From the NCBI GenBank assembly GCA_027214385.1, contig JAPVXR010000010.1, positions 1-64,000 of the forward strand: a stretch of 64,000 nucleotides of DNA, given 5' to 3'. The position numbers were made by a program, and so were the translations under genes. Under the pieces are notes generated by a model. That model was not told where the DNA came from. It made no database searches and worked only from the letters and a program-made list of their open reading frames with translations. This DNA comes from Cryomorphaceae bacterium 1068 (lineage in GTDB: Bacteria; Bacteroidota; Bacteroidia; Flavobacteriales_D; Cryomorphaceae). Below, piece by piece: positions 6,309-23,955 of this stretch. How positions within the stretch are numbered: position 1 is the stretch's first letter; each line of letters opens with the position of its first letter.

Positions 6309-6343
6309 GCGGTCTTCTTACATTCGTAGGAAATGCAGCATCT

Positions 6344-7024: not shown

Positions 7025-7028
7025 TCAT

Positions 7029-7262
7029 ATGGAAGCAAGCAAACACAGTAAGCGCTGGCTGACCTTCGCCCCAATCGGGTTGATTTTGATCGGATCGGGA
7101 TTGTCCATGGCCATTGATGCAGGTTTTTACCGAATGAACGGAGCGGCAACAATCAAGTGGGTTTTATACGGAACGTGCGCTCTGATCGTTTTTAATGCGG
7201 GCTTGTCCTTTTTTGGTCAGGCCATAATTGAAAAAATAAAACACGACCAATCAAAACCATAA
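7029..7262 (+). CDS. Small two-helix membrane protein, unknown
   Basis: 77 residues with two hydrophobic helices (about 10-27 and 43-64) separated by a short polar loop, N-terminus rich in Lys/Arg, so probably a hairpin in the inner membrane. It starts 4 bases after the racemase stop and ends 10 bases before the next gene, which supports it as a real operon member. I do not recognise a family. Confidence 0.6.
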   Translation: MEASKHSKRWLTFAPIGLILIGSGLSMAIDAGFYRMNGAATIKWVLYGTCALIVFNAGLSFFGQAIIEKIKHDQSKP

Positions 7263-7272
7263 AACCACCGCG

Positions 7273-8022: not shown

Positions 8023-8283
8023 ATTTTGAGGACTTCTTGCTCAGCTTCATATTTTGGTAATTTGTGGCATATGATTTGAAAAAGACGAAACCCTAAAAGA
8101 ATTCGAGTCGTAATAAGCAAGTAAGTTTGTGGTCGTTTATACTTACTGTGAAGTTGTTAGCGCAATGGTTGAATTTTATTAAATATTTCAATTCTTGCTT
8201 TGTCTATTGAATTTCATGGTAAAACGTTTGAGATTTTAGCTTAACATTCGCTAAACTTTCAAAAAGAGTCGACCTGAACTAGT
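8023..8283. other. Intergenic AT-rich region
   Basis: No gene is visible between the barrel gene and the deacetylase promoter. The sequence is AT-rich with no clear terminator hairpin. Confidence 0.5.
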
Positions 8284-8314
8284 TTTGATCCGACAAAAAA
8301 AAGGTCTATTTTTG
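8284..8314 (+). promoter_or_regulatory. Bacteroidota-type promoter of the deacetylase gene
   Basis: TTTG (8284-8287), 19 bases, TATTTTTG (8307-8314): an exact fit to the -33 TTTG / -7 TAnnTTTG consensus with normal spacing. The predicted transcript starts about 50 bases before the GTG start codon. Confidence 0.8.
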
Positions 8315-8372
8315 AGCTTGAAGTGCCAAAATGAAATTCAACCGCTCATTTGGCTTGAGTTGGAGGTAATTT

Positions 8373-9365
8373 GTGAATTCTAAAACAACCGAACTCGTGA
8401 ATACAGTATTCAGCATCGACGTAGAAGAATGGTTCCATATTTTGGAAACAGATTCTGTGTCCAAAACTATCTCTGACTGGGATAGATACCCTAGTAGAAT
8501 AAATGAGTCCATGAACATGCTTTTTGATGTTCTGGATAAGCACAACGTTAAAGCTACTCTATTCTTCTTGGGCTGGGTTGGTGAAAAATACCCCCACATC
8601 GTCAAGGAAGCTTGCAAGCGAGGACATGAAATTGCTTCTCACGGTTATTACCACGACTTGGTATATGAGTTGGGTTATAAGAAATTCAGAGAAGACATAC
8701 GGCGTTCAAAAGCTCTTCTGGAAGATCTTTGCGGTCAGGAAGTAAGAGGATACAGAGCACCGGGATTCTCACTTACTCCAGAAGCCTCTTGGGCATACCC
8801 GGCCTTGATAGAAGAAGGATTTACTTACAGTTCCTCTATTTATCCCGCTAAGCGCGCTCACGGTTTTTTCACTGATTTTGGCGATGAGCCACGTGAAATC
8901 ATTTATCAAGGAAACTCAATTGTTGAATTTCCAATGACCGTTTTGGAAGCTCCGTTTACTTCATTGTCCTGCTTTGGAGGTGGTTATTTCAGACTGTTCC
9001 CTGTTAGCTGGTACAAGGCTGCAGCCGAAATGTTGAAGAAAAAAGACAAGAATTTGATCTTTTATATCCACCCCAGAGATATTGATATCGAGCAACCTAA
9101 ACTGGACCTACCGATGAAGAGAAAGATCAAATCATACATCAATGTAGGAACTACCTTATCGAAGATTGATAAGATTTTGGAAGGTGAAAACTATACCAAC
9201 TTTGAAAAAGTAATCGAGAGAACTCAGATTAGCTCTTTGCCAAAGGCTATTGTCCACACAGAGAAAGGAATTGAACGGACCTTCTTAAATTTTGAAAAAA
9301 GAACAGGATCCGTCAAGGAAAAAAGAAACCCTCGTCGTGTGATTCCTATTGCCACTACTGAGTAA
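8373..9365 (+). CDS. Polysaccharide deacetylase, XrtA/PEP-CTERM type with DUF3473
   Basis: 330 residues. GTG start with a purine-rich TGGAGG 6 bases upstream, unusual here and supporting this start. The NodB-fold catalytic domain opens with FSIDVEEWFH (metal-binding Asp), then GHEIASHGYYHDL with the two metal His residues and RGYRAPGFS. The C-terminal third matches DUF3473, found in the deacetylase subfamily linked to exosortase/EPS loci. It should remove N-acetyl groups from a surface polysaccharide. No glycosyltransferases are adjacent, so it stands alone between its own promoter and terminator. Confidence 0.88.
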   Translation: MNSKTTELVNTVFSIDVEEWFHILETDSVSKTISDWDRYPSRINESMNMLFDVLDKHNVKATLFFLGWVGEKYPHIVKEACKRGHEIASHGYYHDLVYELGYKKFREDIRRSKALLEDLCGQEVRGYRAPGFSLTPEASWAYPALIEEGFTYSSSIYPAKRAHGFFTDFGDEPREIIYQGNSIVEFPMTVLEAPFTSLSCFGGGYFRLFPVSWYKAAAEMLKKKDKNLIFYIHPRDIDIEQPKLDLPMKRKIKSYINVGTTLSKIDKILEGENYTNFEKVIERTQISSLPKAIVHTEKGIERTFLNFEKRTGSVKEKRNPRRVIPIATTE

Positions 9366-9402
9366 AAAATTGCATTCAATATATCAGACACTCTCTAAGC
9401 GC

Positions 9403-9435
9403 AAGCCCTTCGAAAAATCGTTGGGCTTTTTTTTT
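9403..9435 (+). terminator. Intrinsic terminator of the deacetylase gene
   Basis: AAGCCC (9403-9408) pairs with GGGCTT (9423-9428), with an inner CGA/TCG pairing, followed by nine or more T. Confidence 0.9.
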
Positions 9436-9508
9436 GGATTAATTAAAGCCTATATAATTGTAATGTCAGATAGAATATGCCTACCATAGCTACTCAGTGA
9501 TACGTATT

Positions 9509-10873
9509 CTAAACACTCGGTGGTAGCTCTTTCTGAATCATATCCATTAACACAACCAGGTCTTCATCTTTAGCAAAGTTGCTTCCGTTTAGAAGCCTGA
9601 ACTGTTTGAAAAACTCTTCTCCTGAAAGCTTTATTTCCCTGTACTCAGCCGCCAACATTAAGGCCCTGATGTGTGGGTTGAACTTGCCTGAGGTCTCGCG
9701 TTCCGCTAATTTCCAACTACGGTTGATCTTCACCATCTGCTCTGTGTTTCCAATTTTCAGCTGAGCGTAGAAGTAGTTCCGAAAAAAGTAGTGCCATTTA
9801 AATTGGAATATTTTGCTGCCGAGCTCGTTGAAAAATCGTGTCGCAAACCCCACGCACTTTGCGTATTGTTGTTTCCGGTTCAAACACCTGCAATAATTAG
9901 AGGCAAAAACAACTCGTCTGCTCTGATCCAATGTGGCCTTGTACATCGGGAAAGTTTCCTGCATCTTCTTCATGGCTTCATCCGGCCGGTCGAGATGCAA
10001 TAAAACGCTCACGTAATTATTAAGGTAGTACAAGTAATCCTCTGTATGGTGCTTTACAGATTGAAATCCGAAATATGCAGCTCTTTCGTAATCGCCCTTA
10101 GAATTGCAAATAATGAGCTTATTTGCGTAAATATTAGCCAGAATACGTCGGGAATAAAAATCACCTTCAAACAATTCTTTCTCTAATTCTTCAAAAGGCT
10201 CAAAAAGTGAATCCCATTTTTTCTGACCGATGTGATACATGAAATAAGCCAATAAAGCATGAAACCGATTTTTCTTAGACAATTCCTTATCTCTGAAAGC
10301 GGATAGGAGCCACTCAATTTGAGTTTTTTCTAATTCTTTTTGTTCCGCGAAGGCGTTAATACGAGTGAGTTCGTTGACCTCTTCTTCTACGTTTCTATTC
10401 CTACTTACCGCAGCGCGAAAACGGTCTAAAAAAGCTTGAACCATGGCATAATCTGAGTGACGGAAACGCCTTAGAAGGTAGCCACCATAATTCTCTACTA
10501 AGCGATAGAAGCTGTCCATATGAAACCATCCGATTTCAAATACCTTCATCTCCTTCAAAATCCTGCTTTGTTCCTTTGGAGAGATAGAGTCTACCGTAAT
10601 CTGATAATTGGTCATGCTAATCCACTCAAAATAGGCATCGACATCCCGTTCTTTGAGCTTCTTGGAAATGCTCGCCATGAGCTTCGAATACTTTCGTAAA
10701 TCGATGGACGGATCAAACTCGATGCCTTTCCATGGTTCGCCTACCCTCAGCTCGATTCTCTCCAAGATTTGAATAATCTCCCTATCCTCGTACGAATTAT
10801 TCTTTTGTACATACTCTATTTCAGATGGAAACAGAGTATCCACAAAAGCCGTGAATTTCTTGAGCTTAGGCAT
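9509..10873 (-). CDS. Large helical (TPR-like) protein, unknown
   Basis: 454 residues, no signal peptide or membrane helix, rich in Lys, Glu, Tyr and Phe, all-helical in appearance. The centre (about 180-370) has degenerate TPR-like helix pairs, for example YERAAYFGFQSVKHH and DRPDEAMKKMQETFPMYK. Many Flavobacteriia have such long cytoplasmic proteins of unknown role. It begins 17 bases after the stop of the exported hydrolase at 10891, so it is probably the last gene of that unit, though the content does not suggest a shared job. Confidence 0.7.
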   Translation of the reverse strand: MPKLKKFTAFVDTLFPSEIEYVQKNNSYEDREIIQILERIELRVGEPWKGIEFDPSIDLRKYSKLMASISKKLKERDVDAYFEWISMTNYQITVDSISPKEQSRILKEMKVFEIGWFHMDSFYRLVENYGGYLLRRFRHSDYAMVQAFLDRFRAAVSRNRNVEEEVNELTRINAFAEQKELEKTQIEWLLSAFRDKELSKKNRFHALLAYFMYHIGQKKWDSLFEPFEELEKELFEGDFYSRRILANIYANKLIICNSKGDYERAAYFGFQSVKHHTEDYLYYLNNYVSVLLHLDRPDEAMKKMQETFPMYKATLDQSRRVVFASNYCRCLNRKQQYAKCVGFATRFFNELGSKIFQFKWHYFFRNYFYAQLKIGNTEQMVKINRSWKLAERETSGKFNPHIRALMLAAEYREIKLSGEEFFKQFRLLNGSNFAKDEDLVVLMDMIQKELPPSV

Positions 10874-10890
10874 TGCCGTCTAAGGTAACT

Positions 10891-11844
10891 CTAGTTCAGG
10901 AAATTCACGATCAACTGATTCACTTCGTCAGCTTTCTCGAACATTACAAAATGGCCCGCCTTTTTGATGACCTCTACCTGTGAGTTCGGAATGAGCTCGC
11001 CTCCATGTTCGGCAATTTTTGCTGAGCTTCCTCCGTGCAAGTATCGATTGGGAATAAGCTGATCAGCAGCTCCCATGACAATTAAAGTAGGCTGTTTGAT
11101 TTTTGATAAATCTCGGATGACGGGTTGATTGACCATTCCCTGAATGGACTTGGTAATGCCATAGCAATACCACAAAAAGTCCTCTCCTGCTCCTGTCATG
11201 GCATATCGATCTTCTACCATGAAAAAGGCGTCATCGGGCATCTTGTAAAAGTTGTGACCCAAGTTGGACTCTATGGCATCCAGAGGAGTAAGCATAACTC
11301 CCTTTGCGGTAATGGCATCCCTAAACCACTCTTTCTCTCCTTCGCTAAAGGTTTCAATTCCAGCCGGGGCTACAAGGACGAGTTTACTGACACGATCGGG
11401 ATGACTCAATGCCGTTACGATGGAGATTTGTCCACCCATCGAATGCCCCGCCAAAACCACTTTGTTCAAACCGATCGAATCCATAAAGGCAATTACTGAT
11501 TTGGAGAAAAAGGTCATCGAGCCTTCGTACTCTCCTTTGGAAGAGCGGCCATATCCGGGCAGATCAATAGCAATGCAACGGTAACTGTTTTTCAACTCTT
11601 CGATGTTCTTCTTCCAAGCGGGCGCATAACTCCCCAGTCCATGAATGAAGAGAATGGTCTCGCTTCCTGAGCCTTCGTCCATGTAGGCGATCTCCATCCC
11701 ATTAAATATGGCCTGTTTGGAAACAGAATAGGGATATTCAATCTTATCAAAGCTATCAACTCGCTCTAGATCTTTGTAAAAAGTTTGAGCTGTGATAGAA
11801 GCCGTAAAAAACAGACTTACGAGTATAAAGAGGTAGTTTTTCAT
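10891..11844 (-). CDS. Exported alpha/beta hydrolase
   Basis: 317 residues from the ATG at 11844; the six codons upstream overlap the previous gene and would spoil the leader. Signal peptide MKNYLFILVSLFFTASITAQ, so it acts in the periplasm or outside. Alpha/beta hydrolase fold: oxyanion region FIHGLGS, nucleophile elbow GHSMGG with Ser at 135, and C-terminal GHFVMFE His. The start is 2 bases after the stop of the outer-membrane barrel gene, so the two are cotranscribed. Likely an esterase or lipase; the substrate is unknown. A second, cytoplasmic alpha/beta hydrolase is coded at 17247. Confidence 0.87.
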   Translation of the reverse strand: MKNYLFILVSLFFTASITAQTFYKDLERVDSFDKIEYPYSVSKQAIFNGMEIAYMDEGSGSETILFIHGLGSYAPAWKKNIEELKNSYRCIAIDLPGYGRSSKGEYEGSMTFFSKSVIAFMDSIGLNKVVLAGHSMGGQISIVTALSHPDRVSKLVLVAPAGIETFSEGEKEWFRDAITAKGVMLTPLDAIESNLGHNFYKMPDDAFFMVEDRYAMTGAGEDFLWYCYGITKSIQGMVNQPVIRDLSKIKQPTLIVMGAADQLIPNRYLHGGSSAKIAEHGGELIPNSQVEVIKKAGHFVMFEKADEVNQLIVNFLN

Positions 11845-11846
11845 GA

Positions 11847-13445
11847 TCAAAACATTAACCATTTAAAAGCCAAATATGCAGTCCATGGATCAACGGGCCT
11901 AGTGCCTAATCGATCCTCGGCATCTACAAATTGATCTCCATTAGCATAAGGAGCATCGTAAAAATCGCCAAGCCATACATGGGCAGCACGAACTTCAATT
12001 TCCATCAAGGTTTTGATTTTCCAACGTATGCCGAAGTTGGCTTCCAAACCTATTTGGGTTCCTCCACGACTGAGGGCTGCATTGGACATGGCGTAGGCTC
12101 CATTTGCTGATAATATCCACTTATTCGGCACAACTGCTTTGCTTACCTGTACATTGACAGCGTTGAGCCCGGCACCCAAATTAGAAATATCACTGATCAG
12201 CGGCATGTATCGGTTGACTACATTCCCGGAAGGGAAAAGCACACTCGTACCTATACCAATTGGTAAGTTACCCGGTGCACCCCATGTATTCCCTGTTATT
12301 ACCCCTGTATACTCTCCATCACTTATTCCATCTTCATCACCGGTAGTGTAGAGATAATCAGCAGTGATCTGATCGTCGGGAGTATTCCCGAATCGGTAGC
12401 CGTAGCGAAGGTTTAAACCGAAACCATTGATATCAGCTACCCGACCATTTTCTCCTTCGATGTTTCCAAGGTTGTAGTTGAAGAACCCGGATAACTTGTG
12501 ATTGTGGTAGGTATACTCTCTGTTGTAATCAAAAAAGGTTCCCAGCCAAGTCACGTTGGTTTCGTAATCTGTATCGGGAAAGACAAACCTATATGCACCT
12601 GTATATTCAGTAAGTAAGCTCTTGGGGCCTTGACCCAGAATAGAGGCTCCTCCCCTCCCATTTGATTTGTCATTAACATGATACACCGATCCGCCGATGT
12701 TGAAGGCAGACATGGCTTTGTAGACTCCCATTGCTTTGTAAAGCCAAACATCATCGCGCAACTCGATGCGATTTTCCCAAAGGTTAAAGATGCCCGCAGA
12801 CACACTACCTCTCGCAAAATCGTGTCGGAAACTAATTCCGGCAGCATCTCCCGCCCAGTACATCAGCCTGTAACCGGTATCGAGGAGTTTATCCACAGTA
12901 GTACGATATGGATGATATGGAGTATCAAAGGTTCGCATCAAACCAAAATTGATGGCATAACCATAAGCAGGAATGATCTCGACCTCGATGTTTTGGGTTT
13001 GTAAATTGACGAAGTCAGCATTGAAACCTGCACCTTGATTTCCTCCCGAACCGTAAGCCGCATCACCCCATGTCCAGTCTATTTCGAATGATGCACGAAG
13101 AGTAACTTTTCCGTCCATCAATTTTGGCGTATACAGGAAAAAAGGTAAAAAACGCTGTTCCACAAAGGAAGTGTAGGTGGTATCTGATGATCGAGCGGTA
13201 CTTCTGCCAAACATACGTCCTATGACCTGACCTTGAAAAAAATCGTTTCGTGGAAAGTAGTTTGCAGTTACACCTTGGGTAAAAAAATAGGCGACAAAAG
13301 TCAATTCCTTATTTGCCTTTATTGGAATTTCCCGATTGAAATAGTACTCAGTATTTGTAGCATTGGTGTCGGGCAATTCTGCATCCTGACCCAAAGCGAG
13401 AATTGTACACAGTATAAAGGCGAAGAAAAGTCTGATGTGCAGCAT
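11847..13445 (-). CDS. Outer-membrane beta-barrel protein (porin-like)
   Basis: 532 residues, signal peptide ending near LALGQ. The remainder is rich in Tyr, Trp, Asn and Gly with alternating strands and ends in a hydrophobic strand with terminal Phe (AYLAFKWLMF), the hallmark of an outer-membrane barrel. Size fits a 16-18 strand porin of the alginate-export or capsule-porin kind. No plug domain is visible, so it is not a TonB-dependent receptor. It shares a transcript with the exported hydrolase. The ATG is only 7 bases past the terminator of the upstream operon, so its promoter must overlap that hairpin, or the gene depends on readthrough. Confidence 0.8.
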   Translation of the reverse strand: MLHIRLFFAFILCTILALGQDAELPDTNATNTEYYFNREIPIKANKELTFVAYFFTQGVTANYFPRNDFFQGQVIGRMFGRSTARSSDTTYTSFVEQRFLPFFLYTPKLMDGKVTLRASFEIDWTWGDAAYGSGGNQGAGFNADFVNLQTQNIEVEIIPAYGYAINFGLMRTFDTPYHPYRTTVDKLLDTGYRLMYWAGDAAGISFRHDFARGSVSAGIFNLWENRIELRDDVWLYKAMGVYKAMSAFNIGGSVYHVNDKSNGRGGASILGQGPKSLLTEYTGAYRFVFPDTDYETNVTWLGTFFDYNREYTYHNHKLSGFFNYNLGNIEGENGRVADINGFGLNLRYGYRFGNTPDDQITADYLYTTGDEDGISDGEYTGVITGNTWGAPGNLPIGIGTSVLFPSGNVVNRYMPLISDISNLGAGLNAVNVQVSKAVVPNKWILSANGAYAMSNAALSRGGTQIGLEANFGIRWKIKTLMEIEVRAAHVWLGDFYDAPYANGDQFVDAEDRLGTRPVDPWTAYLAFKWLMF

Positions 13446-13452
13446 GATGCAG

Positions 13453-13491
13453 AAAATAAAAGGAGGAGCTTCTTTAAATTAAAGCTCCTCC
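13453..13491 (-). terminator. Intrinsic terminator between two minus-strand operons
   Basis: GGAGGAGCTT (13462-13471) pairs with AAGCTCCTCC (13482-13491); on the minus strand the stem is followed by TTTTATTTT. It closes the six-gene operon ending at 13501 and lies directly before the ATG at 13445. Confidence 0.9.
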
Positions 13492-13500
13492 GTTGGTGAA

Positions 13501-14265
13501 TTATTCTACTCGTAGATATTTTTGTACTAGGTTATTTCCAAAAAACCCACCTGAAGTTGAACCAAATCCTCCTGATACTGTGGGAGGAGTAACCCCTGTC
13601 AGAGCAGGATCAGTCTGAACAACCTCGTACCACATTGAATCAGGAGACGCAGAATAAACTTGAACAATTCCCATAGCAGTGCGAGAATCCGGTGTGGTCT
13701 GAGACAAAGTTATTTCGTAAATACCCGCTACGTCATTGCCTGTGACCGTATAACTTCCGCTAAATTCAGTCACAGCTCCATCCTGCGTTGAAAAAACTTC
13801 ATATTGTTGATTACTCATGAAAGTGGCGTTGATTTCCGTTACACCTGCACCCGATAGAGTACCACCTACATCATAAGCTTCCCATTCTCCAACAATGGGA
13901 TTATCCGTAGCGGAACTCAACGGACCTGCATACGAACTGCTGCCATCAGCGCAATTATTACGAACATAGAAGTCATAATCGGTATCGCCCATCAATCCAT
14001 CTACTGTAAACGGATTGCTGTCAGCCGTAACTTCTGTTCCGCTTCCCTGGGCAAATCCGGTTTCACCATATTCAATAGTCCAAGCTGAACCTGTTGAAGT
14101 CCAAGATAATGTCACAGAGTTTGCTTCGGTGTCATCGACTAATAAGTCTGTAGGAGTCGCACAAGCACCCGGTGTGTTATCGTCATCGTCGTCATCATCG
14201 TTACATCCTGTAAAAACTAGACCAAGGCTCAATAGCCCCAAGAAAAAATACTTACTCATTTTCAT
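13501..14265 (-). CDS. Lipoprotein with fibronectin type III domain
   Basis: 254 residues. The leader MKMSKYFFLGLLSLGLVFTG is followed by a lipobox Cys (FTGC) and a run of Asp residues, a usual Bacteroidota outer-membrane lipoprotein start. Residues 38-120 form one fibronectin type III domain (PTDLLVDDTEANSVTLSW to DYDFYVRNNC). The C-terminal half resembles a lipocalin-like beta barrel (NPIVGEWEAYDVGGTL). The first ATG forms an ATGA overlap with the stop of the acyl-CoA ligase gene, so it is translationally coupled to it. In this operon it may be a binding or scaffold protein facing the periplasm or surface; that is inference. Confidence 0.8.
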   Translation of the reverse strand: MKMSKYFFLGLLSLGLVFTGCNDDDDDDDNTPGACATPTDLLVDDTEANSVTLSWTSTGSAWTIEYGETGFAQGSGTEVTADSNPFTVDGLMGDTDYDFYVRNNCADGSSSYAGPLSSATDNPIVGEWEAYDVGGTLSGAGVTEINATFMSNQQYEVFSTQDGAVTEFSGSYTVTGNDVAGIYEITLSQTTPDSRTAMGIVQVYSASPDSMWYEVVQTDPALTGVTPPTVSGGFGSTSGGFFGNNLVQKYLRVE

Positions 14266-15740
14266 GATTTTGTTGGTTTTTGAAGTTTAATTGATTTTGA
14301 AAGTTTCTGCTTGTCAATTTTCCCTGTAGCGTTTACGGGAAGTTCATTTTCAAAGAAGAAATATTTTGGAATTTTAAATTTTGCCAGATTCTTCAGACAG
14401 TACGCTTTTAGCTCATCTTGAGTGAGGGATTCATTCTGTTTGAGTACGATAAAACTCGCTCCAGATTCACCCCATTTTTCGTCGGGAACGCCTACCACTG
14501 CAACATCTGCAACGGCAGAATGGGATTGCAGTACCTTCTCCACTTCACGAGGGTAAACGTTTTCTCCACCGCTGATGTACATTTCTTTTTTCCGCCCCGC
14601 TACGTAAATATAGCCTTCGCTATCTTTCCTGACCAAGTCGCCCGTTTTGAACCAGCCTTCAGAGAAAGACTTTTGATTGGCCTCTTCGTTGTTCCAATAG
14701 CCCGGGGTCACATTGGGGCCAGCCAGCCATAATTCACCCACCTCATTGGGGCCACATTCAGCGCCCGAATCGTTCACGATTTTTCCATTGACGTAGAAAT
14801 TGTAAAACCCGATCGAGCCTCTCTTGCGAATGGTATCGCTCTGATGAAGGGAGGTAACATTTGGGCCGACTTCTGTCAAACCATAGCCCTGACGAATCGG
14901 AATATTCTTTTCAGACCAAAGTTCGATCATGGGGATGGGCAAGGCCTCACCACCAACGATGAAATAGCGGATGTTGGACAAGTCGGCTGTTTTGAACGCT
15001 TCGGTGTCCACCATCATTTTAAGCATCGTCGGCACAGCCATAAAGAGCGTAGAGCCGCTGCTTTCGAGCTTTTCCATAACTTCTTCGGCCACGAAATCGT
15101 TCTGCAACCAAATGGTTCCACCGCGATGCAGCAGCGGAGTGATCAGCACATTCCAGCCACCCGTATGGAAAGCAGGCATGCAGTTCAGTGTGACGTCATC
15201 AGAACTCAAATCCAGCCGAAGCGCCGTATTGACACTGTTCCAAAACAGCATCTTGTGGGTGTAAATCGCTCCTTTGGGAAAACCCGTTGTGCCCGAAGTG
15301 TAGAGGATGAAAATCGGATCATTTTCCTCGAGTGAGTTCAAATAAGGCTCAGCCTTTTTTCTCAGGTCGGCAAAACCGATCTGCGAGTTTTTGTTCTCGA
15401 CCAACTTTTCTTGGAAGGCAGGTTCCGACAAAACCAGTTTCGCTTTTGAATCTTCAATTTGGTACTCCACCTCGCGTGGGGTCAATCGGGTATTGATGGG
15501 CACTAAAATGTATCCAGCCTTTTGGGCGGCACCGAAGAGGGCGATCAGTTCAATCGAAAAAGAGGAAAGTATCGCTATTCGATCTCCTTTCTCCAAGCCA
15601 TAGTCGCGGTGCAATACCCCCGAAATATCAGATGCTTTATCATTTAGCTGCGCATATGTTATTTCTTTTTCGTCCTCTACCACAGCTACCTTTCCGGGAG
15701 AGAACTCAGACCATTTTACAAACCAATCAAACTCGTTCAT
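14262..15740 (-). CDS. AMP-forming acyl-CoA ligase (ANL superfamily)
   Basis: 492 residues. The P-loop-like ATP motif YTSGTTGFPKG lies near 147, the A5 motif GYGLTEVGP in the centre, TGDLV near 365 followed by the hinge GRKKEMYISGGENVYPREVE, and the A10 lysine in NATGKIDKQ near 473. All catalytic motifs are intact. It should activate a carboxylate to an acyl-adenylate and then to a CoA thioester; 492 residues fits medium/long-chain or aryl-acid ligases. It overlaps by 4 bases both the symporter gene before it and the lipoprotein gene after it. OleC of the olefin pathway belongs to the same superfamily, but nothing here marks this protein as OleC. Confidence 0.88.
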   Translation of the reverse strand: MNEFDWFVKWSEFSPGKVAVVEDEKEITYAQLNDKASDISGVLHRDYGLEKGDRIAILSSFSIELIALFGAAQKAGYILVPINTRLTPREVEYQIEDSKAKLVLSEPAFQEKLVENKNSQIGFADLRKKAEPYLNSLEENDPIFILYTSGTTGFPKGAIYTHKMLFWNSVNTALRLDLSSDDVTLNCMPAFHTGGWNVLITPLLHRGGTIWLQNDFVAEEVMEKLESSGSTLFMAVPTMLKMMVDTEAFKTADLSNIRYFIVGGEALPIPMIELWSEKNIPIRQGYGLTEVGPNVTSLHQSDTIRKRGSIGFYNFYVNGKIVNDSGAECGPNEVGELWLAGPNVTPGYWNNEEANQKSFSEGWFKTGDLVRKDSEGYIYVAGRKKEMYISGGENVYPREVEKVLQSHSAVADVAVVGVPDEKWGESGASFIVLKQNESLTQDELKAYCLKNLAKFKIPKYFFFENELPVNATGKIDKQKLSKSIKLQKPTKS

Positions 15741-17254
15741 AGTGGTTTTGTTTGAGGTTGAACAGAACTGACCTTTTGAGCAGAAAGTAAAATCAACAAG
15801 CCAATAGCCGAGGAAATCAGTATGGCATAAGTAGCGGCAATGGCAGGGTTGTTTATTGCGCCTTTCATGTAGGGGCCGATGTTTCCATAGTATACAGAAA
15901 AATGGACGAGAATGGCAGTGACGGAACTCACAATAGCGGCAATAGGAGAAGTCTTCTTGGAAAACATTCCCATGACCAGTGGGAAGAAAGCTGCACTGAA
16001 AAATGCATAGACTCCATTTTGGGCAAAAATGGCAACGCTTAAATCGGGATCAGCGATTTGCCGTGCCGATAAAATCACGGTAAGTACGGCCAGTCCAACG
16101 ATGACGCCTCGGTTGAGTAATATTTTCGAGCGATTCGACCACTCCGATAATTTGGTGGAATTAGAAAGAAAAAGATCATTCGTGAACGTAACCGAAAGAC
16201 TCTGAATTAACCCTTCCAGAGTAGATATTCCCGCGGCGATTAATCCCAGAGTCACCAAGAGTCCTGTGCCCACTCGGAAATTCTCAACGATATAAGCCGG
16301 CACGAGTTGATCGGGTGGCAAAGGATTGCCATTTAAAGTCATATCGGGAAAACTGATTCTCGCATAAAGCCCTACAATCACTACGGAAAAGAAAATGACC
16401 ATGGTGAGAATCGCCGTCAACAAATATTGATTGACTTGGGATTCATCTTTGAGAATTAAAGATTTAGTAATGATGTGAGGTTGACAAACCACCGCCACGC
16501 CGATTACAATTTGACAAAAGACAATTTCGAAATAATCACGGAATAGAAAACTATCAGGGTTGGTGTATTCGGTTAAGCGTGGATCGATGGTTTCCAAGGT
16601 GCTCATAAAACCTGACCAGCCCTCGGCGAAGTATTCGTGGCCGGACAAAATCAAAATCACGGCAACAATGAGCATTAGCAGTGCTTGGATGGTATTGGTG
16701 TAAACCAAGCTATTAGCTCCTCCAAACATCATGTATCCAAAGACGAAAATGACGATACCGACCATCACTACCGTCGGGTCGGCGCCAAGCGGAGCTGCAA
16801 GCAGCTGGGCTAAGCCCACTACGATCAATACGATGAAGGTGACCAGTAAAATGGACAAAAGCGCGAAGCCCGTTCCATAGGCCTTGCTTCCGAATCGATT
16901 GGCCATCCATTGTGCCATGGTCAACGCCTTTACTTTAGTGCCGTGCGCTCTGAATCGTTTGGTCAGAAGGACCAATGATATAAATGCAGCCGCGGGCAGA
17001 ACCAATACATAGGCGATCAATCCTGAAACGCCGTAGAGGCCGATCAAACCCGGATTAATAATAAAAGTAGCTGCGGAAGTCATGCTGGCCGCCAATGCCA
17101 GACCAACCGCTGCGGGCGAGAAGGCAACGCTTCCGAGCGCGTAGTCTTCAATATTGCCCGTGTTCTTGGCTCCCCGAAATACCACAACAAGAATGACGCC
17201 CATCAGAACGGCGAGCATCAAAAGAGTGGGCCATATTTCGGTAAGACTACCCAC
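15737..17254 (-). CDS. Sodium:solute symporter (SSS family)
   Basis: 505 residues with about 13 hydrophobic helices. GTG start, overlapping the hydrolase gene before it by 8 bases. The SSS core is visible: ALAASMTSAATFIINPGLIGLYG in the first helices (helix 1 substrate/sodium region) and GLIAAGISTLEGLIQSLSV in helix 8. It resembles the acetate/monocarboxylate/proline branch. Being placed directly before a CoA ligase, it most simply imports the carboxylate that the ligase activates; this is inference from position. Confidence 0.87.
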   Translation of the reverse strand: MGSLTEIWPTLLMLAVLMGVILVVVFRGAKNTGNIEDYALGSVAFSPAAVGLALAASMTSAATFIINPGLIGLYGVSGLIAYVLVLPAAAFISLVLLTKRFRAHGTKVKALTMAQWMANRFGSKAYGTGFALLSILLVTFIVLIVVGLAQLLAAPLGADPTVVMVGIVIFVFGYMMFGGANSLVYTNTIQALLMLIVAVILILSGHEYFAEGWSGFMSTLETIDPRLTEYTNPDSFLFRDYFEIVFCQIVIGVAVVCQPHIITKSLILKDESQVNQYLLTAILTMVIFFSVVIVGLYARISFPDMTLNGNPLPPDQLVPAYIVENFRVGTGLLVTLGLIAAGISTLEGLIQSLSVTFTNDLFLSNSTKLSEWSNRSKILLNRGVIVGLAVLTVILSARQIADPDLSVAIFAQNGVYAFFSAAFFPLVMGMFSKKTSPIAAIVSSVTAILVHFSVYYGNIGPYMKGAINNPAIAATYAILISSAIGLLILLSAQKVSSVQPQTKPL

Positions 17255-18272
17255 GCAAAAATGGATTTAGAATTTTCATAAAACCGTCCAAGTCTTCGAT
17301 GTAAGGTGAATGGCCGCACTCCTCCATCACCTCTTCACGGTAATTGAAACCCGCTTTCTCAAGTGCGTTACGGGTTTGCGAAACCATCGGTTGAGGGGCG
17401 CATTGATCAGCTCCGGGATAGTTTGGAATCAAACCGAGCTTACCCAGCACTGCCGTGTCAAAAAGAGATTCATCAGAAACGATCTTATCCTTTCCTCCTC
17501 GAATCCAAAGCGTTTCGGGCTTCTGAGTCACCTCCGATAATTGGTTGAGTATTCCTGTTTTGGAAAGCGGCGATGCACAGTTGATCTGCCCTTTATCTCC
17601 GGGCTTCGAAAAAGGAAAGCTTTCGGAAGGTGAGTGATCTCCCGGATAGAACTCCTCTCCCACTCTCATTCGAAGCAAACCCTCGAGCAAATCATTCACC
17701 CTTTCGGGAACGAATGGTGGCTCCCAATAAAAGGAGTTCATCACATTAAGCGGAGCGGATGGATTTCCCGTTCCCCTCTCTTTCTTTTGTAAAAGCTCAA
17801 CGAAATCGGGATTGATGACACCCGCGCCACTTCCAGCTCCATCGGGATAGGTAAGGCCTCCTTCCACGTTTGATGTTGCGCCAAATCCAAAAGGAGACGC
17901 GGGATTGACCAAGACCATTTTTTGGATTCTTTGGCTGTCGCGAAGCACCATTTCCCAAGAAATTCCCCCACCGAGGGAATGGCTGATGATGGTGTACTTT
18001 TCAATTTTTTCGCGATCAATCAAAGCGAGCAGATCATCTACAAAATCTCCGAAGCTTTTTTCCGCTTTGGCCGGCACTGCTTCCGTCAATCCGAAGCCCC
18101 TCAGATCAGGGGCAATGCAGGTATAGCGATCGGGCATGGCGTCCATCAGCTCTTCCCAGAATACGCTGTCGGATCCATTTCCATGGATAAACAGAATCAC
18201 TTCATCTCCCCCATTTCGGCGGCGAAGATGCTGCTTGATTCCATTGGCTGATATGTAAACCTGCTCGATCAT
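17247..18272 (-). CDS. Alpha/beta hydrolase, cytoplasmic
   Basis: 341 residues from the ATG at 18272, 2 bases after the KAS III stop; a TTG two codons upstream is less likely. No signal peptide. Oxyanion region FIHGNGSDSVFW, nucleophile elbow SHSLGGG with Ser near 99 (first Gly of the usual GxSxG replaced by Ser), acid in the cap/lid region and His in ECGHSPYIED near the C-terminus. A 100-residue lid between 120 and 240 suggests a bulky acyl substrate. OleB, the hydrolase of the olefin pathway, uses an Asp nucleophile, so this is not an OleB orthologue. Likely an esterase or thioesterase acting on a product of its operon. Confidence 0.87.
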   Translation of the reverse strand: MIEQVYISANGIKQHLRRRNGGDEVILFIHGNGSDSVFWEELMDAMPDRYTCIAPDLRGFGLTEAVPAKAEKSFGDFVDDLLALIDREKIEKYTIISHSLGGGISWEMVLRDSQRIQKMVLVNPASPFGFGATSNVEGGLTYPDGAGSGAGVINPDFVELLQKKERGTGNPSAPLNVMNSFYWEPPFVPERVNDLLEGLLRMRVGEEFYPGDHSPSESFPFSKPGDKGQINCASPLSKTGILNQLSEVTQKPETLWIRGGKDKIVSDESLFDTAVLGKLGLIPNYPGADQCAPQPMVSQTRNALEKAGFNYREEVMEECGHSPYIEDLDGFMKILNPFLRG

Positions 18273-18274
18273 TT

Positions 18275-19261
18275 TCAATATTTGTATAAGGCTCCCGCAA
18301 AAGCCAATCCGCCTCCCGATCCGATAAACATGAGGTAATCTCCTCGCTTGATTCGTCCCGCTTTATTGGCTTGATCAAGCGCCATCGGGATACAAGCAGA
18401 ACCGGTATAGCCATAGTGGTGCATCACGTACTCCGCTCGTTCGTGTTCGATATTCAAATTATCGAGCGTCTCGTGGATTGCGTTTATGTTAATCTGAGTA
18501 ATGAAAAAGCGATTCACATCTTGTGGGCTGATGTGGGCTCGCTTGCACAATTCCTGAATCATGCTCGTCCACATTTGTGGATTGAGCTCTTTGGGGAATT
18601 TGTGAACGAATTGAAGTAGCTGGGTTTTCTCTTCCAGAACCTTTTCGCTGACGGGTGTTTTTGCGCCACCCGCATAAATCCCCATCCAATCGGCGTATTC
18701 GCCTTTGGTCTCCAACATGGAAGCCAACAAACCTTCTTCACCTTCATGGGACGATAAAATGACTGCACCGGCTCCGTCGGCAAAAAGCGTCACGGTTTTC
18801 TTGTCGTGAAGATTGAGGTATTTCGACATGTTGTAAGTGCCTACCACCAATACTTTTTGGTATTGATCATCGGCGGAGATGTACTTCGCAGCCATATCAA
18901 GGGCCGTAACGAAGCCCGCGCAAGCGGTGTTGATATCGAATGTACCTGCTTTGGTGGCCCCCAATCTGTGCTGCACCACTGAGGCAGTGGAGGGAGAAAC
19001 ATATTCCGGAGTATCCGTGCTGATGATGATCAAATCGAGTTCTTCAGCTTTCACACCTGCAGCAGATAATGCAGCCAAGGCGGCATTCTCGGCCAAATCA
19101 GCTGTAGATTCATCGGCCTCAGTCCAGCGACGCTCAAAAATCTGCACGTTCTGACGTAACCAAGTATCGACGTCTTGGCCCAAAATTTCATTGAAATAAG
19201 AGTTGGGCACTACCTTTTCGGGGACGTACATTCCCGTGCCCAAAATCTTTGCGTTTCTCAT
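18275..19261 (-). CDS. KAS III-like protein lacking catalytic His and Asn
   Basis: 328 residues, normal FabH length. Start taken at the ATG 19261, 2 bases after the SDR stop. The active-site Cys is kept (DINTACAGF, Cys 114). Aligned with E. coli FabH, the HQAN box reads TQIN (His to Thr 255) and the HGNTSAAS box reads YGYTGSAC (Asn to Tyr 285). In FabH-type enzymes this His and Asn bind and decarboxylate malonyl-ACP. The C-terminus (GGLAFAGALYKY) is typical. So it can form an acyl-enzyme but should not do a normal decarboxylative condensation; acyl transfer, or an unusual condensation, is more likely. Two His residues at 281-282 could partly substitute. It sits between an SDR and a hydrolase in a tight operon. 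Confidence 0.88.
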   Translation of the reverse strand: MRNAKILGTGMYVPEKVVPNSYFNEILGQDVDTWLRQNVQIFERRWTEADESTADLAENAALAALSAAGVKAEELDLIIISTDTPEYVSPSTASVVQHRLGATKAGTFDINTACAGFVTALDMAAKYISADDQYQKVLVVGTYNMSKYLNLHDKKTVTLFADGAGAVILSSHEGEEGLLASMLETKGEYADWMGIYAGGAKTPVSEKVLEEKTQLLQFVHKFPKELNPQMWTSMIQELCKRAHISPQDVNRFFITQININAIHETLDNLNIEHERAEYVMHHYGYTGSACIPMALDQANKAGRIKRGDYLMFIGSGGGLAFAGALYKY

Positions 19262-19263
19262 GC

Positions 19264-20004
19264 TCAAAGTTTTAATCCTCCATCAACATTAAGCACAGCA
19301 CCAGTGATGAAAGAAGCTTTGTCAGATGCGAGAAAAACATAGGCATTCGCAATGTCTTCAGGCTGCCCGAGTCTTCCCAGCGGTGTTTGAACCCGCAACC
19401 CATCGAGTACTTTTTCAGGGACGGACTTGATCATATCGGTATTGATAAATCCCGGAGCTACCGCATTAGCCGTAATACCATATCGACCCAGCTCTTTTGC
19501 CCAAACTTTTGCCAAGCCAATCACACCTGTTTTGGTGGCAACGTAATTGCTTTGACCAAAATTTCCATTGTGAGCAACGACGGAAGAAGTATTGATTATT
19601 CGACCACCTCCCGTTTCCATCATGTGAATAGCCACTGCTTTACCACAATTGAATACACCAGTGAGGTTGACGTCAATTACTTTCTGCCATTGATCAGGCG
19701 TCATCTTTTTAAGCGTGCTATCGGCAGTTACACCGGCGTTATTAATTAGAATATCTACTTTACCGATGGTTTCAACCGTTTTGGCGACGGCTTCTTCGAC
19801 AGCCTCGTAAGATCGAATGTCCACCGACATAAAACCGATCATCGAAGACTGATCGCCAGCTAATTTTATGGTTTCAGCTGCCTGCTCTGAATTGATGTCC
19901 CAAATCATTACACGACATCCTTCAGAAACAAATTTTAGGGTAGTTTCACGACCGATACCATTTGCGCCACCAGTGATTATTGCTGTTTTATTTTCGAGTT
20001 GCAT
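19264..20004 (-). CDS. SDR-family oxidoreductase (FabG/PhaB-like)
   Basis: 246 residues from the ATG at 20004; a longer open frame adds 17 codons that do not fit the family. Cofactor motif TGGANGIG at about residue 10, NNAG near 86, catalytic Ser in NTSSV and YVATK (Tyr-x-x-x-Lys). Length and motifs fit 3-oxoacyl-ACP/CoA reductases. It is the first gene of the six-gene operon running down to 13501, and the 205-base AT-rich gap upstream, shared with a divergent gene, must hold the operon promoter. The likely reaction is NAD(P)H reduction of a 3-oxoacyl thioester or the reverse oxidation. Confidence 0.88.
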   Translation of the reverse strand: MQLENKTAIITGGANGIGRETTLKFVSEGCRVMIWDINSEQAAETIKLAGDQSSMIGFMSVDIRSYEAVEEAVAKTVETIGKVDILINNAGVTADSTLKKMTPDQWQKVIDVNLTGVFNCGKAVAIHMMETGGGRIINTSSVVAHNGNFGQSNYVATKTGVIGLAKVWAKELGRYGITANAVAPGFINTDMIKSVPEKVLDGLRVQTPLGRLGQPEDIANAYVFLASDKASFITGAVLNVDGGLKL

Positions 20005-20209
20005 TGTTTTTGTATTATGTGGGATGAAGGTAGTTTTGACGTGTAAAAATACCACATATCAAATTATTTATTAATATATGATTATTTACACAAATAGAAC
20101 TTATTACTCTACTAATCACTTCTTTAATACTAATATTTTTGATGTGATATAATGGTGTATGATTGACAATTTTGAGAATGAATGAGATATGGTTTTTTTT
20201 TAATATTCA

Positions 20210-20437
20210 ATGAGTTTTAAACCTGAGTTGCTCGTGGAATGTGTGAATATGAAAATGCCTTTCGGTAAGTACGAAGGGCGATATTTATGCGACCTACCGA
20301 TTTCGTACCTGGAATGGTTCAAGCGAAAAGGTGGCTTCCCTAAAGGAAAAATCGGAGTTTTACTCGAAACGGTCTATGAAATAAAACTAAATGGATTAGA
20401 CGAAATCCTTTTTGAACTTAAGCGAAGATTCAAATAA
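20210..20437 (+). CDS. DUF3820 family protein
   Basis: 75 residues. The MPFGKYEGRYLCDLPISYL motif followed by WF...GFPKGKIGVLLE is the DUF3820 signature. Members are small cytoplasmic proteins, sometimes labelled putative quorum-sensing-regulated virulence factor; related sequence occurs in exonuclease-associated proteins. Function unknown. It is divergent from the SDR operon. Confidence 0.75.
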   Translation: MSFKPELLVECVNMKMPFGKYEGRYLCDLPISYLEWFKRKGGFPKGKIGVLLETVYEIKLNGLDEILFELKRRFK

Positions 20438-20455
20438 AACTTCAACAAATTTTAT

Positions 20456-20599: not shown

Positions 20600-22045
20600 T
20601 TGAAAACGAAATACTTCGATCTTATTGATCAATCATTCTTCTTTCCCCAAGAAGAATTTACCCTAAACGGGGCAGAACTAAAGTTTCATGATATTGACCT
20701 GATGAAACTGGCTGAAGAATACGGCACCCCACTCAAGTTTACTTATCTACCCAAGATTAGCGATAATATCAATCGCGCGAAAGGCTGGTTTAAGGATGCG
20801 ATGGTAAAAAGCAATTACAAGGGAACTTATAATTATTGCTATTGCACCAAAAGTTCTCACTTCAAACACGTCTTGGATGAAGCGCTGAAAAACGATATTC
20901 ACATCGAGACGTCCTCGGCATTTGACATCAATATCGTTCAGAACCTAAAGAAATCAGGTGCTATTAAAAATGATACCTATGTAATTTGCAATGGTTTCAA
21001 GCGTGATCAATATGTGCACAACATAGCGGAATTGATAAACGGAGGACACAAAAAGTGTATCCCTATAATTGACAATTACGAGGAGCTCAACTTGCTCTCA
21101 GAACAGATCAATGAAAACTTTGAGGTTGGGATTCGCATTGCCTCAGAAGAAGAACCGAAGTTTGAGTTTTACACTTCAAGACTGGGTATCGGTTACAAAA
21201 ACATCGTTCCGTTTTACAACCGAGAAATAAAAGATCGGCCTGATGTAAAACTGAAAATGCTGCACTTTTTCATCAATACTGGTATCAGAGATACAGCCTA
21301 CTATTGGAATGAACTGCAAAAATGCTTGAAGGTTTATATAGACTTGAAGCGCGTTTGTCCTAACCTCACGGGGCTAAACATTGGGGGTGGCTTCCCCATT
21401 AAAAATTCACTGGCCTTTGATTACGATTACGCATACATCATCGATGAAATCGTAAATCAAATTAAGATGGCCTGTGATGAGGCCGGAGTGGATACCCCCG
21501 ATATTTTTACCGAATTCGGAAGTTTCACTGTAGGCGAAAGTGGTGGGGCCATTTACAAAGTACTTTACCAAAAGCAGCAAAACGACAAGGAAAAGTGGAA
21601 TATGATCAACTCATCTTTCATCACTACTCTACCCGACACTTGGGCGATCAACAAACGCTTTGTGATGCTTCCCATCAATCGCTGGAATGACGAATATGAG
21701 CGAGTGCTCCTCGGCGGCCTCACTTGCGATAGCGACGACTATTACAATTCAGAGCAGCACATCAACGCCATCTATCTTCCAAAGTATAGAAAGGACAAGC
21801 CACTTTACATCGGGTTTTTCAATACGGGTGCTTATCAAGATACTATTGGTGGTTACGGCGGATTGCAGCACTGCTTGATTCCTCAGCCAAAACAATTATT
21901 GATTAGCAAAGACGAAAGTGGAGAAATGAAGACAGAGGTCTTCGCACCACAACAATCTCAAGAAGCAATGCTCGATATTTTGGGTTACCAAAACGCCCTT
22001 GAGAAGGCTCCTGTGGTACCTACTAAAGTAGAACAAGTCAACTAA
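20600..22045 (+). CDS. speA: Arginine decarboxylase (PLP, alanine-racemase fold)
   Basis: 481 residues. Makes agmatine and CO2 from arginine. TTG start (MKTKYFDLIDQSFFFPQEEF after initiation); the next Met is at residue 35, inside conserved sequence, so TTG is preferred. The PLP lysine lies in NYCYCTKSSHF near residue 80; substrate and PLP-phosphate regions include NIGGGFPIKNS and TEFGSFTVGESGG. The CDSDDYYNSEQH motif near the C-terminus holds the second active-site Cys/Asp. This is the ~465-480 residue form common in Flavobacteriia, shorter than the E. coli-type SpeA. speB starts 1 base after its stop. Confidence 0.92.
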   Translation: MKTKYFDLIDQSFFFPQEEFTLNGAELKFHDIDLMKLAEEYGTPLKFTYLPKISDNINRAKGWFKDAMVKSNYKGTYNYCYCTKSSHFKHVLDEALKNDIHIETSSAFDINIVQNLKKSGAIKNDTYVICNGFKRDQYVHNIAELINGGHKKCIPIIDNYEELNLLSEQINENFEVGIRIASEEEPKFEFYTSRLGIGYKNIVPFYNREIKDRPDVKLKMLHFFINTGIRDTAYYWNELQKCLKVYIDLKRVCPNLTGLNIGGGFPIKNSLAFDYDYAYIIDEIVNQIKMACDEAGVDTPDIFTEFGSFTVGESGGAIYKVLYQKQQNDKEKWNMINSSFITTLPDTWAINKRFVMLPINRWNDEYERVLLGGLTCDSDDYYNSEQHINAIYLPKYRKDKPLYIGFFNTGAYQDTIGGYGGLQHCLIPQPKQLLISKDESGEMKTEVFAPQQSQEAMLDILGYQNALEKAPVVPTKVEQVN

Positions 22046-22046
22046 A

Positions 22047-22994
22047 ATGGAATCAAAAAGAACTTACGCGGGAATCGATAAAGAATTCGCATCTCCTGAA
22101 AAGTCAAAAATCGTTTTAATTCCCGTTCCTTACGATGGGACGAGTACTTGGCTAAAAGGCGCTGACAAAGGACCCGAAGCCTTTCTGAAAGCTTCTGAAA
22201 ACATGGAGCTCTATGACATCGAAACGGAGACTGAAGTCTACAAACAAGGTATTTACTTGCATGACCCCGTTACCGAAAAATCGAGTCCAAAAGCGATGGT
22301 CGAGGCAGTGCATGCTACGACGAAAAAAGAGATTACCAAAAACAAATTCGTAACCCTTTTCGGTGGTGAACACTCGGTTTCAATCGGAGCAATAAGAGCA
22401 TTCAATGAGTGCTTTGACAAGCTAACGGTTTTGCAAATCGACGCACATGCCGACCTCCGAAAAGAGTATGAAGGCACCCCTTACAATCATGCTTGTGCGG
22501 TTTACGAAGCGAGTCAAAACACCAACTTGATTCAGGTCGGAATCCGTAGCATGGACATTTCGGAAACCAGAGTGATGGATAAAGAAAAAGTCTTCTTTGC
22601 GCATGACATGGCTACCGACGAATACTGGCCCGATAAGGTAATGGAATTGCTAACCGATAATGTCTACATCACTTTTGACCTAGACGCTTTCGACCCCGGT
22701 ATTTTGGCTTCGACAGGCACCCCTGAACCGGGAGGACTTTTCTGGTATGAAACACTCGATTTCTTGCGCAATGTTTTTACGAGTAAGAATGTAGTCGGAT
22801 TTGACATTATGGAGCTCTGCCCGAATGAAGTTGATAAATCTTCCGATTTCGTTGCAGCAAAACTGTACTACAAAATGCTCTCTTACAAATTCATGAATAC
22901 GAATTTGGGAGATGATTTCGAGAGCGGTACTGAGACTGAAAAAAGTTCTTCAGACAAAAGAACAATGACAAAAAACTTTGACTACGATGAGTAA
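22047..22994 (+). CDS. speB: Agmatinase (ureohydrolase family)
   Basis: 315 residues. Hydrolyses agmatine to putrescine and urea. The manganese-binding signatures are complete: GGEHSVSIG near 108, QIDAHADLR near 131 and FDLDAFDPG near 210. The C-terminus carries a polar tail of about 25 residues rich in Ser, Glu and Lys beyond the usual end. It follows speA by 1 base and overlaps the next gene by 8 bases, so arginine to putrescine is encoded in one transcript. Confidence 0.93.
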   Translation: MESKRTYAGIDKEFASPEKSKIVLIPVPYDGTSTWLKGADKGPEAFLKASENMELYDIETETEVYKQGIYLHDPVTEKSSPKAMVEAVHATTKKEITKNKFVTLFGGEHSVSIGAIRAFNECFDKLTVLQIDAHADLRKEYEGTPYNHACAVYEASQNTNLIQVGIRSMDISETRVMDKEKVFFAHDMATDEYWPDKVMELLTDNVYITFDLDAFDPGILASTGTPEPGGLFWYETLDFLRNVFTSKNVVGFDIMELCPNEVDKSSDFVAAKLYYKMLSYKFMNTNLGDDFESGTETEKSSSDKRTMTKNFDYDE

Positions 22995-23955
22995 GCCAAT
23001 TACCGATTTTATCGAAAAATACTACCTGCACTTCAATGCAGCCACGGTTATAGATGCCTCAAAAGCCTACACTGCCCAGCTGGACCGAGGGGCCAAAATG
23101 TTGGTAACACTTGCGGGTGCGATGAGCACAGCTGAGTTAGGGAAAATCTTTGCGGAGATGATTCGCCAAGACAAGGTTCAAATCATTTCCTGCACCGGTG
23201 CAAATCTTGAAGAGGACATCATGAACTTGGTGGCCCATAGCCATTACGAGCGCGTCCCCAACTACAGAGATCTCACTCCTCAGGAAGAATGGGCTTTACT
23301 CGAAAGAGGGCTGAACCGAGTAACGGACACCTGCATTCCTGAAGAGGAAGCTTTCAGACGACTCCAAAAACACGTCTTCAAAATTTGGAAAGATGCCGAG
23401 GAAAAAGGGGAACGCTACTTCCCTCATGAGTTTATGTACAAATTGCTCCTGTCAGGAGTTTTGGAAGAGTACTACGAAATCGACGTTGCAGACTCATGGA
23501 TGTTTGCAGCGGCAGAAAAGAATCTGCCCATCGTTGTACCGGGCTGGGAAGACAGCACAATGGGAAACATCTTTGCCAGTTATGTCATGAAAGGTGAGTT
23601 AAAAGCCTCTACCATGAAATCGGGAATCGAGTACATGGGATTCTTAGCTGATTGGTACACGGCCAATTCTGAAAATGGAATCGGGTTTTTCCAAATCGGC
23701 GGAGGAATTGCAGGCGATTTTCCGATCTGCGTTGTTCCCATGCTCTATCAAGATATGGAGCGCACGGACACACCATTTTGGAGCTATTTCTGCCAAATTT
23801 CAGATTCTACTACGAGCTACGGTAGTTACTCAGGTGCAGTACCTAACGAGAAGATAACGTGGGGAAAGCTGGATTTGGATACACCAAAATTCATCATCGA
23901 ATCTGATGCGACCATCGTGGCACCGCTTATGTTTGCGCACATACTGGGCATGTAA
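22987..23955 (+). CDS. Deoxyhypusine synthase-like protein (possible homospermidine synthase)
   Basis: 322 residues from the ATG at 22987, which overlaps the speB stop by 8 bases; a TTG three codons upstream is weaker. NAD-dependent deoxyhypusine synthase fold: AGAMSTAELGKIF, SCTGANLEEDIMNL, FFQIGGGIAGDFPI for NAD binding, and ITWGKL containing the lysine (294) that carries the aminobutyl group in the family. Bacteria have no eIF5A, so bacterial members generally transfer the aminobutyl group to a small polyamine, giving homospermidine (speY-type). The linkage to speA and speB supports a polyamine product. The exact acceptor is not shown by the sequence. Confidence 0.85.
   Translation: MSKPITDFIEKYYLHFNAATVIDASKAYTAQLDRGAKMLVTLAGAMSTAELGKIFAEMIRQDKVQIISCTGANLEEDIMNLVAHSHYERVPNYRDLTPQEEWALLERGLNRVTDTCIPEEEAFRRLQKHVFKIWKDAEEKGERYFPHEFMYKLLLSGVLEEYYEIDVADSWMFAAAEKNLPIVVPGWEDSTMGNIFASYVMKGELKASTMKSGIEYMGFLADWYTANSENGIGFFQIGGGIAGDFPICVVPMLYQDMERTDTPFWSYFCQISDSTTSYGSYSGAVPNEKITWGKLDLDTPKFIIESDATIVAPLMFAHILGM

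Follow-up and report, generated by a model that had tools for sequence, protein, structure and literature searches.

What does a bacterial gene locus do when its central enzyme has the fold of FabH but carries Thr and Tyr in place of the catalytic His and Asn? The question is raised by a contig of Cryomorphaceae bacterium 1068 (JAPVXR010000010.1, positions 1 to 64,000, hereafter the window), in which a run of genes codes for such a beta-ketoacyl-acyl carrier protein synthase III (KAS III) together with a short-chain dehydrogenase/reductase (SDR), an acyl-coenzyme A (CoA) ligase, hydrolases and transport proteins. All coordinates given here are those of the whole 64,000-nucleotide window, and all the genes of the locus lie on its minus strand. 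At a rough probability of 0.5, we consider that the locus serves the uptake and catabolism of a carboxylic acid in ester or oligo-ester form, the acid being most likely a 3-hydroxy acid.

The preliminary description of this DNA, made from the sequence alone, had listed six open frames between 13501 and 20004. All six were found at those coordinates, and Pfam profile matches agreed with the six families proposed (SDR, ACP_syn_III, alpha/beta hydrolase, SSF, AMP-binding and fn3). The close coupling described was also seen: the frames overlap by 4–8 bases, and with the internal ATG starts of the KAS (19261) and the cytosolic hydrolase (18272) the genes lie 2 bases apart. The six genes are therefore a real unit in the sense of that description, but its boundary had been drawn too early. 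The conserved unit is about 9509–20004 and consists of eight to nine genes, the six being its first part. In the genomes G002 and G005 (Cryomorpha ignava), which represent two further genera of the family, the nine-gene order SDR, KAS, hydrolase, symporter, ligase, lipoprotein, porin, second hydrolase and tetratricopeptide repeat (TPR)-like gene is kept at 44–80% identity between different flanks, and the porin orthologues at the matching position are 73–75% identical. Since the conserved order runs on to 9509 in relatives with other flanks, the six-gene unit was rejected as complete, and an arrangement kept in other genera in spite of different flanks is not due to chance. The features of the locus are as follows.

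19264–20004, minus strand: SDR dehydrogenase, similar to FabG and acetoacetyl-CoA reductase (Pfam adh_short_C2, 5e-67), with Asp36 at the end of beta2 and the catalytic Ser-Tyr-Lys
18275–19267, minus strand: KAS III-fold enzyme, with Cys116-Thr257-Tyr287-Ser317 replacing Cys-His-Asn-Phe
17247–18278, minus strand: cytosolic alpha/beta hydrolase (Ser101-Asp264-His323), accessory and missing from most loci
15737–17254, minus strand: sodium:solute symporter (SSF; PF00474, 3e-36)
14262–15740, minus strand: AMP-forming acyl-CoA ligase, similar to MenE, FadD13 and feruloyl-CoA synthetase (PF00501, 1e-79; PRK06839, 458.7 bits)
13501–14265, minus strand: lipoprotein with an fn3 domain (Pfam) and a C-terminal lipocalin-like beta-barrel (predicted structure)
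13462–13491, minus strand: strong hairpin followed by a T-rich stretch in the gap between the lipoprotein and porin genes (-19.7 kcal/mol, z -5.5)
11847–13445, minus strand: outer-membrane porin, Alginate_exp-like (PF13372, 1.6e-6)
10891–11862, minus strand: exported alpha/beta hydrolase (Ser141-Asp267-His304); many relatives have it as a lipoprotein
9509–10873, minus strand: TPR-like protein with no Pfam match, adjoining the locus in 12/63 loci

Conservation of the gene set in relatives, on which the preliminary description had made its proposal depend, proved to be strong. The scan of the genome collection gave 43 KAS orthologues with 49–80% identity, the next matches being FabH proteins at 39% or less. 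The carriers were Cryomorpha-type Flavobacteriales, Saprospiraceae, Chitinophagales, Fulvivirga, Nafulsella, Ignavibacteria, Balneolales and Bdellovibrionota/Oligoflexia. The locus is absent from the other genome of the window's genus (G001), and elsewhere in the order, relatives outside the family gave FabH-level matches only. In the sample of the phylum, the locus KAS was present in 57 of 395 genomes, which belong to 38 of the 171 genera covered, and the gene order is kept in about 60 loci across phyla.

The gene content was tallied in the 43 loci flanked on each side by 7.5 kb or more, and 37 FabH loci treated alike served as the control. The ligase accompanied the KAS in all 43 loci, the SDR and a second, exported-type hydrolase in 42 each. 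An SSF symporter was encoded in 35 and a major facilitator superfamily (MFS) carrier in one; a porin was found in 27, a TonB receptor in 12, the lipoprotein in 27, a MarR/GbsR-type regulator in 22 and the TPR-like protein in 12. The FabH control loci contained an SDR in 29 cases (FabG), a ligase in five, a second hydrolase in one and none of the other locus genes. Thus, outer-membrane entry, an exported hydrolase, an inner-membrane carrier and CoA activation are encoded together and conserved, and the exchange of one uptake part for another (SSS or MFS carrier, porin or TonB receptor) is what would be expected of a substrate-uptake locus. In the Bdellovibrionota loci, the SDR, KAS and ligase are kept together with two hydrolases, and uptake genes were not seen in the vicinity.

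If the locus takes up a substrate, what can its KAS III do with it? FabH uses His244 and Asn274 to stabilise the enolate formed by decarboxylation of malonyl-ACP (acyl carrier protein) (PMC10054515). In the alignment with FabH of S. aureus, the His of HQAN is replaced by Thr257 and the Asn of GNTS by Tyr287, so that the early observation of a KAS III with Cys and without His/Asn holds. Thr and Tyr occupy these sites, with Cys116 kept, in 64/64 locus proteins, whereas His and Asn are present in 40/40 FabH proteins. Because these enolate-stabilising residues are replaced, the Cys-Thr-Tyr KAS should not perform a malonyl-decarboxylating condensation in the manner of FabH or OleA. Of the 59 rows readable at the gatekeeper Phe (F304 in E. 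coli), 58 have Ser. Arg249 of the E. coli enzyme takes part in ACP docking; its site is Asn in 54/64 locus KAS proteins and Arg in 38/40 FabH, and the Arg36 site is mostly Asn in the locus proteins. The loss of the docking Arg suggests that the enzyme does not use ACP. All Cys-Thr-Tyr proteins fall into one clade of the tree with 100/100 support. It should be noted that the fold itself is a normal KAS III fold: the AlphaFold2 model (predicted local distance difference test, pLDDT, 87.8) matches FabH and BioZ at Z of about 46. Among solved structures there was no close sequence relative, the best being FabH at about 30%, and they gave no hint of the substrate. The active site is rebuilt in a manner not described in anything searched.

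The enzyme thus shares with FabH its fold, length, active Cys and oxyanion glycines and differs from it in the residues listed above and in its operon. It also passes the cut-off of the PRK09352 "beta-ketoacyl-ACP synthase 3" model (267.8 bits, cut-off 249), and automatic annotation is therefore likely to call it FabH. The SDR reaches 293.6 bits with the FabG annotation model, just below the cut-off of 296. Scores so near to these models are what a loose cluster of ordinary fatty acid synthesis or beta-oxidation genes would give. We consider such a cluster very unlikely, as the catalytic residues are lost in 64/64 KAS proteins, the importer-containing conserved gene set is absent from FabH loci, and the window's genome has separate FabH-type copies with His and Asn as well as three ordinary thiolases elsewhere. 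With these thiolases available, the locus KAS is not needed for standard beta-oxidation. Neither can it be classed by its domains as a Cys-His-Cys degradative thiolase, which has full thiolase N and C domains: Thiolase_N matches residues 51–155 only (36 bits), Thiolase_C gives no match, and ACP_syn_III and ACP_syn_III_C match instead.

The same residues bear on the olefin or beta-lactone (Ole) pathway, in terms of which the locus had been framed at the outset. The locus does bring a member of the thiolase superfamily together with an adenylate-forming enzyme, an SDR and an alpha/beta hydrolase, and the four superfamilies are broadly similar to those of Ole. OleA is a Cys-His-Asn enzyme, OleD belongs to the 3-beta-hydroxysteroid dehydrogenase/extended SDR type and OleB has an Asp nucleophile. 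The locus enzymes depart from all three. The KAS has no His/Asn and scores 104 bits with the PRK09258 model, far below its cut-off of 285 and below its score with the FabH-type model. The SDR, recognised early as short and FabG-like, is so by both Pfam and annotation models and matches adh_short_C2, adh_short and KR only. The alignment likewise supports a Ser in place of the Asp nucleophile in the cytosolic hydrolase (41/41 aligned segments), a protein present in only 11/63 loci. Meanwhile, the locus adds an importer, a porin and an exported hydrolase to the set. The Ole framing was therefore rejected because of the residues, the family of the SDR and the genes present, and a pathway of this type is hardly credible for the locus.

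A likely direction of the reactions is suggested by the SDR. An Asp at the end of beta2 is the classical sign of NAD preference in SDRs; it is present in 60/60 locus SDRs, all with the full Ser-Tyr-Lys set, and in 11/29 FabG-like controls. The invariant Asp points to NAD and thereby favours oxidation rather than reduction. Import of a carboxylate, followed by its activation and its transfer or reduction, had been proposed for the locus; import and CoA activation are supported by the conserved gene set, but reduction is disfavoured by the NAD-type Asp. The ligase matches the AMP-binding family, to which OleC, the beta-lactone synthetase of the Ole pathway, also belongs, and its best annotation models are CoA ligases; the symporter has one weak structural relative.

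The hydrolases are consistent with an ester as the source. The Ser-Asp-His triad of the exported hydrolase is complete in 53/53 aligned segments; its N-terminus has a signal-peptide-like stretch in the window and a lipobox in many relatives. Several lineages have two copies of the exported-type hydrolase, one exported and one with no visible signal, as would be expected were an oligo-ester hydrolysed both outside the cell and within it. A similarity of the hydrolase to the intracellular polyhydroxyalkanoate (PHA) depolymerase model lies below the cut-off.

The lipoprotein may take part at this step. Its C-terminal domain is conserved in the locus and has no Pfam match above cut-off. The predicted structure (pLDDT 92) resembles the lipocalin-family protein 4gzv of Bacteroides (Z 11.6, root-mean-square deviation 3.7 over 102 residues), and the structure comparison as a whole gave lipocalin-like barrels at modest Z and no precise family. 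The model suggests a hydrophobic ligand for the barrel.

Put together, the proteins would form the following route. The ester would be admitted by the porin, or by the TonB receptor in other lineages, and cleaved by the exported Ser hydrolase, the lipocalin-like lipoprotein presumably holding a hydrophobic ligand. The SSS symporter would import the released acid, which the AMP ligase (a CoA-transferase in the Chloroflexota version) would convert to its CoA ester, and the NAD-type SDR would oxidise the hydroxyl to give a 3-oxoacyl-CoA. Cys116 of the KAS III would then take the acyl group in a CoA-only reaction without malonyl decarboxylation, most simply a retro-Claisen thiolysis. A ligase, a 3-hydroxyacyl dehydrogenase-like SDR and a thiolase-fold enzyme correspond to the second half of a turn of beta-oxidation; in the recurrent neighbour families, neither an acyl-CoA dehydrogenase nor an enoyl hydratase was recognised. 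As transport is directed inward and an esterase is exported, use of an ester-bound 3-hydroxy acid is the simplest reading.

A distant version of the locus supports this reading. Among the plasmid matches listed, one was not from Streptomyces: a Chloroflexota record that is a deep Cys-Thr-Tyr member, the Streptomyces matches having 34–36% identity. The Chloroflexota plasmid (L177, CP069395.1) encodes at 6179–14951 an SDR, a Cys-Thr-Tyr KAS (38%), a CoA-transferase, a thiolase with a DUF35 protein and an alpha/beta hydrolase. In this set, the CoA-transferase replaces the ligase, and an ABC-type importer with a Peripla_BP_6 binding protein replaces the symporter.

Known systems offer partial parallels. 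BbsAB of benzylsuccinate degradation and Ltp2-ChsH2 of steroid side-chain degradation pair, as the locus would, an SDR with thiolase-fold C–C cleavage of CoA esters, and the thiolase/DUF35 pair that recalls them stands in the Chloroflexota version, the only one where DUF35 was seen; they differ in that the locus KAS is a KAS III and not an SCP2-type thiolase. The use of PHA oligomers, with its exported hydrolase and import of 3-hydroxybutyrate, is similar in the below-cut-off hydrolase match mentioned above and in an SDR near acetoacetyl-CoA reductase. It differs in that no extracellular polyhydroxybutyrate (PHB) depolymerase accompanies the locus and the Cys-Thr-Tyr KAS takes the place of the thiolase.

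A bolder form of the proposal is that the Cys-Thr-Tyr KAS is a new CoA-dependent, C–C cleaving thiolase derived from a FabH in which Thr, Tyr and Ser took the places of His, Asn and Phe. On this view, a widespread but unrecognised pathway for the catabolism of ester-bound hydroxy acids, present in Bacteroidota and other phyla, would be built around it. We put this forward tentatively, and several points weigh against it and against the route above. A real thiolase is also encoded in L176 and in two distant versions of the locus, L163 and the Chloroflexota plasmid, where it would be redundant if the KAS were itself a thiolase; this is the main reason for doubting that role. No precedent was found for thiolysis by a Cys-Thr-Tyr KAS III. 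The probable substrate can be given as a class only. The NAD-type Asp of the SDR also occurs in some FabG-like controls. Finally, the extracellular PHB depolymerase family PF10503 had no match in the window's genome and was found in only one of the 395 phylum genomes (E 1e-15); that genome carries the locus, which is too little to mean anything. PHB polymer, the most familiar of those built from 3-hydroxy acids, is thus not an obvious source, and oligomers are possible.

The additional thiolases give weight to another form of catabolism, in which the KAS would catalyse a different reaction of a CoA thioester, such as acyl transfer or a retro-aldol-type cleavage, and an ordinary thiolase elsewhere would finish the degradation. 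The thiolases in or next to L163, L176 and the Chloroflexota plasmid (two of SCP2 type, one of the three with a DUF35/ChsH2 partner), the three in the window's genome and the altered site chemistry brought about by Tyr in place of Asn are all in line with it. Most loci, however, have no thiolase, and Cys116, invariant here, is the acyl acceptor in thiolases and KAS enzymes alike. On balance, this division of labour seems doubtful, though worth keeping in view.

Could the acyl group instead be carried outward? In a biosynthetic locus, the ligase would activate the imported acid and the KAS would transfer the acyl group to an acceptor, giving a lipid or a secreted ester. KAS III-fold proteins with altered triads are known acyltransferases, and the cytosolic hydrolase beside the window KAS could edit the products. 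We regard biosynthesis as unlikely, since the porin or TonB receptor, the exported hydrolase and the importer of nearly every locus point inward, the SDR is of NAD type, and the recurrent neighbours yielded no recognised exporter, carrier protein or enzyme that could serve the acceptor.

No account of the locus or of a Cys-Thr-Tyr KAS III was found in the open-licence literature; papers under open licence on KAS III retro-Claisen or altered-triad degradation, on 3-hydroxybutyrate loci of Bacteroidetes and on PRK06840 contained nothing on the locus. Judged with the tools used here, this is a real and widespread locus that is uncharacterised. Of the phylum genomes sampled, one in seven has a KAS III of the Cys-Thr-Tyr clade. 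If catabolism of an ester-bound acid is indeed its role, a whole route by which environmental bacteria use carbon would be hidden under the names of fatty acid synthesis, and the enzyme would be an example of a condensing-enzyme fold turned to another reaction by a few substitutions.

Some further observations were made on the locus and its surroundings. Two loci contain an additional KAS III that belongs to the PRK06840 type and also lacks His/Asn at the usual sites (L176, 13601–14632; L163, 5359–6366). Both score above the PRK06840 cut-off, and PRK06839 is the best model of the locus ligase; the PRK06840 KAS differs from the Cys-Thr-Tyr KAS in being only 23–24% identical to it and in having other residues at the His/Asn sites. 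The PRK06839 (CoA ligase) and PRK06840 (another His/Asn-less KAS III) models are named from Bacillus, and their neighbouring numbers suggest a related Bacillus cluster. In one run of genes, L163 (5359–13734) combines two KAS enzymes, one of Cys-Thr-Tyr type (44%) and one of PRK06840 type, with a pair of ligases, a cytosolic hydrolase and an SCP2-type thiolase.

The MarR/GbsR-type regulator (34/63 loci) and the TPR-like protein (12/63) never occur in one locus, a count in which shared ancestry was not controlled for; the TPR-like protein may replace the regulator.

The gap between the lipoprotein and porin genes contains strong hairpins in four genomes, with wholly different stem sequences and z from -4 to -9.6. 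Apart from the one in the window, they lie in the equivalent gap at the following locus positions.

L039, 15790–15870: hairpin
L042, 15795–15860: hairpin
L044, 15823–15905: hairpin

The hairpin is possibly a mid-operon terminator or a processing element.

Upstream of the SDR gene and divergent from it, the plus strand of the window at 20600–23955 carries a polyamine-like set, judged from the translations only to consist of arginine decarboxylase, agmatinase and a deoxyhypusine synthase-like protein. Between the SDR gene and this set, a short frame at about 20200–20440 (plus strand) resembles a gene for a DUF3820-type small protein.

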